The notes beneath the pieces are model-generated. The model saw only the letters and a program-made list of their open reading frames with translations, was not told the DNA's origin and did no database searches. The translations under genes were made by a program, and so were the position numbers. From positions 1-46,205 of IMG/VR virus record IMGVR_UViG_3300044712_000351: DNA of 46,205 bases; one strand, 5' to 3'. This stretch comes from a virus. This document shows, piece by piece, positions 22,092 through 45,421 of the stretch (position 1 is its first letter; each line of letters opens with the position of its first letter).

Positions 22092-23081
22092 ATGGGAGCA
22101 ATAGGAAATACCTACCCGACCATGATTGACGTAGCCCGGAGGCTTGACCCGGATGGCTCAATCGCTGATATTATCGAGTATTTAAACGCAGTAAACCCGA
22201 TGGTGGCAGACGCACCAAGCACAGAGGGCAACTTGCCCACAGGACACCGCTTCACGCGGCGTACCGGGCTCCCTACCGTGGGATGGCGGCGCATTAACCA
22301 AGGCGTAGTACCCGGCAAGTCCCAAACCGCGCAATACGACGAAGGTTGCGGCATTTTGGAAGCATACGCCGATGTTGACAAGAAACTGGCTGACCTTAAC
22401 GGAAATTCAGCCGCATGGAGATTATCCGAGAACTCCGCATATATCGAATCAATGGGCCAGGAGGCGGCATCTACCTTGCTCTACGGCAATGTGGACGATG
22501 ACCCGGAAGAGTTTGACGGCTTTATGAACCGCGATACTCTGAACGCTCTTGGAACTTACTGTTTAGGCGCAGGTGGCACGACCAACCTAGCGTCTATTTT
22601 ATTGGTGGGCTGGGACCCGAAGAGAGTTACCATGCTCTACCCGAAAGGCTCCAAGGCTGGACTTGATTCCGAGGATAAGGGACAAGTGACCATTGGTGAT
22701 GCTACCAACGGCTATTATGAGGGCTATCGCACTCACTACGTTTGGGAATTGGGCCTTGTTATTCCCGACCCGCGCTATGTTGTGCGTATCCCCAATATTG
22801 ACACCGTTGCCTTGGCTACCTTTGACTCTACGTCAGACACGTCGGCAAATCTTATGCAGTTGATGATTCGCGCCTATAACGCTATTCACAACATCGACGC
22901 CTGCCGTCCTGTGTTCTACATGAACCAAACCGTCAAAACTTGGCTTGACATTATGGCTAATACCGGCTCCAACCGGAACGTGTCTATTAACTACATCGAC
23001 GGAAAGCCTGTAACCACGTTCTGGGGTGTTCCCGTTAAAAAATGTGACGCTATGCTTTCTAGCGAAACGCAAGTGTCGTAA
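22092..23081 (+). CDS. Major capsid protein
   Basis: 329 aa, RBS AAAAGGAGTG. Segments such as YPTMIDVARRLDPDGSIADIIEYLNAVNPM, WRRINQGVVPGKSQTAQYDEGCGILEAYADVDKKLADL and the C-terminal KPVTTFWGVPVKKCDAML are those of the BPP-1-type (HK97-fold) podovirus capsid family. It forms the icosahedral shell with the cement protein encoded next. Confidence 0.92.
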   Translation: MGAIGNTYPTMIDVARRLDPDGSIADIIEYLNAVNPMVADAPSTEGNLPTGHRFTRRTGLPTVGWRRINQGVVPGKSQTAQYDEGCGILEAYADVDKKLADLNGNSAAWRLSENSAYIESMGQEAASTLLYGNVDDDPEEFDGFMNRDTLNALGTYCLGAGGTTNLASILLVGWDPKRVTMLYPKGSKAGLDSEDKGQVTIGDATNGYYEGYRTHYVWELGLVIPDPRYVVRIPNIDTVALATFDSTSDTSANLMQLMIRAYNAIHNIDACRPVFYMNQTVKTWLDIMANTGSNRNVSINYIDGKPVTTFWGVPVKKCDAMLSSETQVS

Positions 23082-44000: not shown

Positions 44001-44453
44001 ATGTATAGCGAATTTGCAAATGCGCTGATTACGGCAAACAGCATGTCACAAGAAAAGCTTGCAGAAATGGTCGGAGTTAGCAGAGAGATGATTTCCAAAT
44101 ACTACTGTGGCACATCATTACCAAGTGCTGATAAGGTGCAACGGATGGCAGAAGTGCTAAACTCTCCCATGCTAATGTGGGAATGGCTTCGCGCTAATCC
44201 CATAGGCCGGGAACTGCTGCCGAAACTGCCTAACATGCCACTATCGCAAGCGTTCTCATATCTCTACAGCGCAATAAATAAAGTCGCAGATATGCACCGC
44301 GACTTAGTGGAGATAACCAAGGATAACCGCATAGAACCGCATGAGTACGACACGTATCAGGCAGGGAGGGAGATAGTTAGGGAATTGGTTGCATGTTGTG
44401 TGCTGTATAAGATGGCAGTACATGAGAAAAGCACTCCTGCCAGAGTGCTCTAA
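44001..44453 (+). CDS. XRE-family regulator
   Basis: 150 aa, RBS GTGAGGTGATTC. N-terminal helix-turn-helix MSQEKLAEMVGVSREMISKYYCGTSLPSADKVQRMAEVL (residues 14-52), then a mostly helical domain with a hydrophobic, Cys-rich C-terminus (LVACCVLYKMAVH). A common early regulator of Firmicutes phages. Its 3' end folds as AGCACTC/GAGTGCT, a possible weak terminator before the RAMP-like gene. Confidence 0.72.
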   Translation: MYSEFANALITANSMSQEKLAEMVGVSREMISKYYCGTSLPSADKVQRMAEVLNSPMLMWEWLRANPIGRELLPKLPNMPLSQAFSYLYSAINKVADMHRDLVEITKDNRIEPHEYDTYQAGREIVRELVACCVLYKMAVHEKSTPARVL

Positions 44454-44521: not shown

Positions 44522-45136
44522 ATGCAAGCAAAAAGTAGCGTTTCAAATGATGCTGATTATTTAATTGTTGCTCCGTTTAGCGTAAATATAACAATTTGTG
44601 GCACAGCAGATTTACTTTTTCATCGTTGGTCTGATGATGAAGTGGAAGCAAGGGCGAAAGCAGCCAAAGGAAGCAAGGCAAAAAAAACGGATAACCCGGA
44701 AGTATACGTTTATCGCGACCAAAACAACTATATTTGTATGCCTGGACGGTATATCCAACGGGCTATAGTAGAGGCGGCAAGGTTTCACCAAGACCCAAGA
44801 AGCCCGCGTAAAATGGCAAAAGATTTAGTTCAAGCGGCGGTAGTTGCTTCTCCTGTATTATCTCCGATTTTGGTTGATGGTAAACCTGTCGAAGAATGGG
44901 ATTATTTAGATCGTCAACGTGTGGTAATTCAGAGAGCGGCCATCACAAGAACAAGACCAGCATTTTATGCAGGTTGGCAAGTTGAATTTTCAATTACATC
45001 CCTACTACCTGAATATGTGACGCCTGAGTTTTTGCGGCGGCTTGTGTCTGACGCCGGAAGGTTTGTAGGGTTAGCCGATTTTCGACCGACATATGGCCGT
45101 TATGATCTTGTAATTTGGGAAGAAGTCAAGGAATAG
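44522..45136 (+). CDS. RAMP/Cas7-like phage protein of unknown function
   Basis: 204 aa, RBS AGGAGGG. Residues 20-36 are a first strand ending VNITICGTADLLFHRW; 71-88 contain ICMPGRYIQRAIVEAAR, like the P-G-x-x-h-x-x-A helix of RAMP proteins; 132-160 form paired strands; 181-195 FVGLADFRPTYGRY has the place and Gly/Arg pattern of the RAMP glycine-rich loop. Similar proteins occur in many phages and are unassigned to my knowledge. The fold is inferred, not proven. It is followed directly by the GG-periodic non-coding tract, its likely partner. Confidence 0.6.
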   Translation: MQAKSSVSNDADYLIVAPFSVNITICGTADLLFHRWSDDEVEARAKAAKGSKAKKTDNPEVYVYRDQNNYICMPGRYIQRAIVEAARFHQDPRSPRKMAKDLVQAAVVASPVLSPILVDGKPVEEWDYLDRQRVVIQRAAITRTRPAFYAGWQVEFSITSLLPEYVTPEFLRRLVSDAGRFVGLADFRPTYGRYDLVIWEEVKE

Positions 45137-45421
45137 GGCGAGCACCGTGGATTGGAGAGGCACGGCTTTGTAAGTTGATGCGCGGTGGTGTTGGGTGTTG
45201 GGTTAGGTTGTGTTGGACTTGGTAAGCACCGAGGTGTTGCTTGTGCTGGAATGGAGAGGTTCGGCATGGTAATCAGAGGTAAGTTATTGCGAGGCATGAT
45301 CTGGTGAGTTTAGATAAGGCTAGCACCGAGGACCGGAGTGGAAAGGTATTCTTCGGTATGGTGCGGTTGGATCTGGTTTGATATGGAGAGGTTTGCACCG
45401 TGGTTTAAGGAGAGTGATTAA
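45137..45421 (+). ncRNA. Period-5 GG-rich non-coding tract with four GCACCGWGG boxes
   Basis: No usable ORF; GG recurs every 5 nt over long runs (for example 45247-45270 and 45327-45392). GCACCGWGG occurs at 45142, 45226, 45323 and 45395, cutting the tract into blocks of 84, 97 and 72 nt; TGGAGAGG recurs in three blocks. It lies on the sense strand right after the RAMP-like gene and so is likely transcribed with it. Not a CRISPR array: units are degenerate and phase-shifting. Confidence 0.6.

Follow-up and report, generated by a model that had tools for sequence, protein, structure and literature searches.

VIPR (Viral Interference Programmable Repeat), the closest described system to the locus considered here, was presented in a preprint posted on 27 April 2026 as an RNA-guided weapon of phage against phage, with phage SUSP1 as the type II model (PMC13142463). 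According to that preprint, VIPR consists of a phage-encoded RAMP protein, Vipr, and guide RNAs (vrRNAs) of 9–16 YNNGG repeats, in which GGY is constant, the variable NN pairs with double-stranded DNA, and one target base is skipped (PMC13142463). Transcription of vrRNAs and their binding by Vipr were demonstrated in SUSP1 and P. fulva, and each type II vrRNA carries an invariable structured 3' tail (PMC13142463). The preprint places VIPR mainly in phages or proviruses, with an accessory gene, vap, beside vipr (PMC13142463). A literature search under the name VIPR returned nothing beyond this preprint. VIPR represents a newly described form of RNA recognition of DNA through a noncontiguous code, and Vipr has been put forward as an ancestor of the CRISPR RAMPs.

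The window analysed here, the whole 46,205-nt stretch of DNA, carries a locus that we identify with high confidence as a VIPR system. As in SUSP1, a small phage RAMP protein lies beside intergenic GG-centred pentanucleotide repeats on the same strand. SUSP1 Vipr is a distant homologue of the window protein (26% identity over 68% of the protein), and phylogenetic analysis places the latter in a separate clade of 19 rows (support 99/99) that does not include SUSP1, where it groups with the protein of a Synergistaceae MAG contig (support 100/99; JAISFV010000140.1, hereafter L241). The locus is thus a further VIPR member outside the SUSP1 branch. The initial annotation had called it a candidate undescribed system, a claim overtaken by the preprint in which this kind of system was already published (PMC13142463), but it reached the central idea of VIPR independently, from sequence alone.

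The Vipr protein and its genomic setting

The gene and its upstream neighbour are as follows.
44001–44453, + strand: HTH (Cro/CI-like) regulator directly upstream of vipr (PF01381, E 7e-10; phrog_6499, E 2.7e-22).
44522–45136, + strand: vipr gene, encoding a 204-aa protein predicted to be a Cas7-type RAMP protein (PHROG 4652, unknown function).

The vipr open reading frame has a good ribosome-binding site, and its 204-aa product matched phrog_4652 (E 1.5e-18), with no match to a Pfam family or a PADLOC model. An AlphaFold2 model built from nine aligned homologues had a mean pLDDT of 78.6 and a pTM of 0.75. When this model was used in a fold search, all 50 of the 50 PDB matches listed were CRISPR complexes, with type VII Cas7 first and many type III Csm chains among them (E from 5.3e-6, probability 0.98–1.00). 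TM-scores to these complexes were moderate (0.37–0.54), indicating a likeness to Cas7-type RAMPs at the level of the fold and not a close kinship. Among viral structures, one of the three strong matches was annotated 'Cas system-associated RAMP superfamily protein'. The C-terminal glycine-rich Gly/Arg loop, AGRFVGLADFRPTYGR, is nearly invariant across 10 homologues, and G179, G183 and G192 are, with other residues, invariant in the 10 homologues compared. The predicted structure thus supports a Cas7-type RAMP fold, and the RAMP/Cas7-like protein with a Gly/Arg loop recognised by the initial annotation is borne out by both the PDB matches listed and the conservation of the loop.

The window protein resembles the Cas7 subunits of class 1 CRISPR systems (type VII Cas7, Csm3) in its fold, and VIPR resembles them in having subunits that step along RNA. 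The systems differ in that the step is 5 nt as opposed to 6 nt, the VIPR guide is noncontiguous, and the window has neither a CRISPR array nor other recognised cas genes. The Cas7-type fold would also be expected of a CRISPR-Cas fragment, comprising a stray Cas7 and a degenerate array, but we regard this origin as exceedingly improbable. The window proteins scanned revealed no further Cas gene, there were no CRISPR-like direct repeats, no Rfam match and, for the RAMP protein, no PADLOC match, and in many phages the homologue likewise stands as a single gene accompanied by a GG tract.

The window, which encodes terminase, portal-type connector, capsid, tail, primase/helicase and Sak4, represents the genome of a tailed phage. 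Its nearest terminases, at about 60% identity, belong to three genomes of one Bacillota class, and a terminase search in Synergistota returned none at the cutoff. Both contig ends (45938–46205 and 1–431) fall within one 27-nt repeat array, that of a DUF7666 gene (SSGNYAKIG-like repeat), indicating that the genome is probably circular and was cut at the repeat, or else that the contig broke there. If the genome is circular, the VIPR locus would precede Gp157 and Sak4 by a few kb; recombination genes are found near vipr in many relatives too, with neighbour identities read by eye. Of the genes that neighbour vipr, neither the HTH regulator nor a 49-aa ORF had homologues beside the other vipr genes compared. 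None of the vipr neighbours in the window was recognised as a vap accessory gene, which is another difference from published VIPR.

The GG-period-5 array and its constant element

The vipr stop codon is followed directly by a 285-nt region that we interpret as an array of guides, with the following parts.
45137–45421, + strand: putative vrRNA (guide RNA) array with GG every 5 nt, from lag excess over shuffles and reciprocal association with vipr homologues.
45137–45150, + strand: constant element 1, GGCGAGCACCGTGG, starting directly after the vipr stop codon and matching the element that precedes both L241 tracts.
45151–45225, + strand: repeat tract 1, about 15 five-base steps, with GG frequently degenerate in its latter half (from sequence and GG positions).
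45226–45234, + strand: constant element 2, GCACCGAGG.
45235–45322, + strand: repeat tract 2, about 18 five-base steps (from sequence and GG positions).
45323–45331, + strand: constant element 3, GCACCGAGG.
45332–45394, + strand: repeat tract 3, about 13 five-base steps and a single phase slip (from sequence and GG positions).
45395–45403, + strand: constant element 4, GCACCGTGG, with no tract behind it.

G accounts for 111 of the 285 nt. The region had been described as lacking an ORF, and indeed no + strand ORF of at least 60 aa was found; the sole ORF overlapping it is antisense (45100–45297). Autocorrelation recovered the proposed 5-nt GG signal. There were 14 GG–GG pairs at each of lags 5, 10 and 15, against means of 4.4–4.6 in 2,000 dinucleotide-preserving shuffles of 45137–45421 (z = 4.6–5.0), and the observed value was reached in none of the 2,000 shuffles. 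Lags 20, 25 and 30 were raised too; the remaining lags were not. A sliding GG-period score computed over the whole 46-kb window on both strands placed all of its best windows inside this tract, where it reached 26.3 compared with at most 4.8 on the - strand. The earlier suggestion that each GG step corresponds to one protein subunit fits the published VIPR model, with GGY constant and NN variable (PMC13142463).

The region holds 37 GGs in a broken run, with GT, TG or GA in place of GG in several units, and the phase shifts coincide with copies of the element GCACCG(A/T)GG. Four copies of this element occur in the array, at 45142, 45226, 45323 and 45395. Between them lie about 15, 18 and 13 steps, many without GG, compared with the 9–16 repeats per vrRNA of VIPR. 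The GGY rule also appears partly relaxed relative to VIPR; a pyrimidine follows 18 of 26 phased GGs, and A follows 8 of 26 compared with 8% in the clade. Read under the 1-nt-skip rule, tract 2 would spell an in-frame-like code without forced stops.

These ragged tracts reflect either a relaxed code or a decaying array. A decaying VIPR locus, with the protein intact and the guides partly eroded and perhaps non-functional, would account for the many units with GT, TG or GA for GG, the phase slips, and the over-representation of GGA at the expense of GGY (8/26 as opposed to 8%). We consider decay unlikely, if far from negligible, because the protein retains its invariant residues, the period signal remains strong, and a relative whose protein is about 62% identical shares the constant element. 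That relative, L241, has the closest protein to that of the window, but it carries two clean tracts upstream of the gene where the window has three ragged tracts downstream.

An extended form of the element, GGCGAGCACCG(A/T)GG, precedes the first window tract and both tracts of L241, where the version of element 1 is GGCGAGCACCGAGG. Nothing resembling the element was found 3' of the L241 tracts, and its placement ahead of them suggests a 5' handle. We propose that each guide probably carries GCACCG(A/T)GG on its 5' side as a constant handle. The 3' tail known from type II guides was not recognised in the window array. In other vipr loci, constant pieces are found on either side of the tracts. 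It is possible but doubtful that the window and its Synergistaceae relative form a VIPR sub-lineage defined by a 5' GGCGAGCACCG(A/T)GG handle and a code that tolerates GG-less or GGA units. Such a sub-lineage would have a variant guide architecture, unlike the 3'-tailed type II guides, although the preprint's supplement may already describe a 5' handle.

Long constant pieces also lie between repeat tracts in two other vipr loci, L087 and L007, including the stem GGCGGCTAAAAACCGCC in L007. They may act in the processing of guide arrays or as their terminators.

Conserved pairing of gene and tract across phages

The association between vipr and the period-5 tract was recovered from both directions. 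A protein-free scan of IMG/VR for ten consecutive GGs at 5-nt steps yielded at least 120 loci; 82 of the 120 listed encode a member of the vipr family, as opposed to none of the 120 listed for a control with 7-nt steps. All 763 tract matches in those 82 loci share the gene's coding strand and lie no more than 2 kb from it, at a median distance of 138 nt. In the reverse test, 112 loci were found by the protein profile alone (alignment query). A strong sense-strand tract was present within 1.2 kb in 99 of these, compared with 3 of 112 for the antisense strand; at a distance of 2.4–3.6 kb, strong tracts were found in 0 of 104 protein-found loci. That a reading of raw sequence and blind pattern scans arrive at the same gene–tract pair lends strong support to published VIPR.

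Individual homologues at differing distances show the same arrangement. GG-period-5 tracts adjoin the gene in both phage DSL-LC04 (OR003939.1), whose protein is 48% identical to that of the window, and SUSP1 (26%). DSL-LC04 differs from the window in that its tracts lie upstream of the gene and that a 147-aa lysine-rich protein, absent from the window, follows it. The DSL-LC04 Vipr (22429–23046) carries the annotation 'helix-turn-helix transcriptional regulator', apparently in error.

In the remaining 38 of the 120 listed period-5 loci (e.g., L004, L102 and L116), no vipr was recognised. These tracts could represent truncated contigs, loci with more divergent proteins, guide-only satellites, or chance occurrences in GC-rich coding DNA.

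The skip rule and guide targets

The window's protein clade obeys the 1-nt-skip rule of VIPR. Across 4,076 units of clade tracts, a pyrimidine follows GG in 90% and the next two positions are near-uniform. We decoded 233 clade tracts and, after masking GG tracts, sought their targets in the fetched loci; counts made without masking and a complexity filter were uninformative and were set aside. At a segment score of at least 18, there were 28 matches at skip 1 compared with 1, 2, 1 and 0 at skips 0, 2, 3 and 4, and 0–4 matches across five runs that used guides of shuffled NN order. At a score of at least 20, there were 11 matches at skip 1 and none in the controls, save one self match at skip 3. 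The skip-1 matches are not independent, because many targets are homologous to each other, but they outnumber the control matches by a wide margin. Since this clade is well separated from SUSP1, its adherence to the skip rule suggests that the code is general.

A G-rich tract on one strand that, in a circular genome, would precede the recombination genes Gp157 and Sak4, as in many relatives, might alternatively be a structural or packaging element to which a DNA-binding protein binds, such as a single-stranded-DNA binding site or a G-rich recombination signal, and not a guide. This we judge very improbable, given that the NN positions are near-uniform while GG is fixed, that the decoded NN match genes of other phages at one specific skip length, and that the vrRNAs of SUSP1 are transcribed and bound, according to the preprint (PMC13142463).

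The initial annotation inferred that the protein coats or processes the RNA; going by the preprint, the RNA would be more than a coated or processed molecule, namely a guide for double-stranded DNA (PMC13142463). By the same analogy, transcription of the array, assembly of an RNA–protein complex, DNA binding and repression would be expected in this phage (PMC13142463). Several copies of the Vipr RAMP protein would assemble along short RNAs from 45137–45421 and grip the conserved GG steps. Within each five-base unit, the two variable bases would read double-stranded DNA, with one target base skipped between pairs, and the Vipr–RNA complex would probably repress genes of competing phages or prophages in a shared host.

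The best clade targets lie in protein-coding sequence, and the skipped base falls on the wobble position. They include the helicase motif VVIPTGGGKTPVMA and vipr genes, both sense (RTRPAMKAGWQA) and antisense (KKTDNVESYV). One such clade guide matches the vipr gene of the window itself at 21/24. Clade guides with clear targets match homologues, in related phages, of the carrier's core genes, including a helicase and vipr. In five of the five cases checked, the carrier's own allele was a poorer match than the best foreign target (16 vs 21 of 22; 20 vs 25 of 28; 18 vs 22 of 24; 22 vs 28 of 30; 15 vs 18 of 20). Because foreign alleles match better, competition between phages that carry VIPR can be tested directly.

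For the window's own guides, no convincing target was found within its own genome at skips 0–3, the fetched loci, the exact-pattern IMG/VR scans, or a small set of host-like genomes. An exact 12-unit pattern had no match in IMG/VR. A 9-unit pattern had 35, the best at 27/36 in an SbcC-like coiled coil, which we judged to be chance. Among 23 genomes of a possible host family there was one match with 3 mismatches, and the reversed-pattern control also gave one. The tract 1 pattern gave 29 matches, including tape-measure-like proteins at 18/20, which we judged unproven, and its in-frame match to the phage's own Gp157 gene (1400), at 14/20, was at chance level for the window. A search of 53 Synergistaceae genomes with the L241 guide likewise returned no target.

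Two sets of guides from other loci illustrate individual targets. The tract near 3750 in L344 is antisense to the conserved KK(T/S)D(N/D)VESYV of vipr in L349, L336, L315 and others; this guide matches up to 21/22 bases in foreign vipr genes and 16/22 in its own vipr. The tracts near 4998 in L248 and L250 match the helicase Walker A region near the vipr locus of L310, L288 and others, and the helicase of L248 itself is a poorer match to its guide than the foreign helicases.
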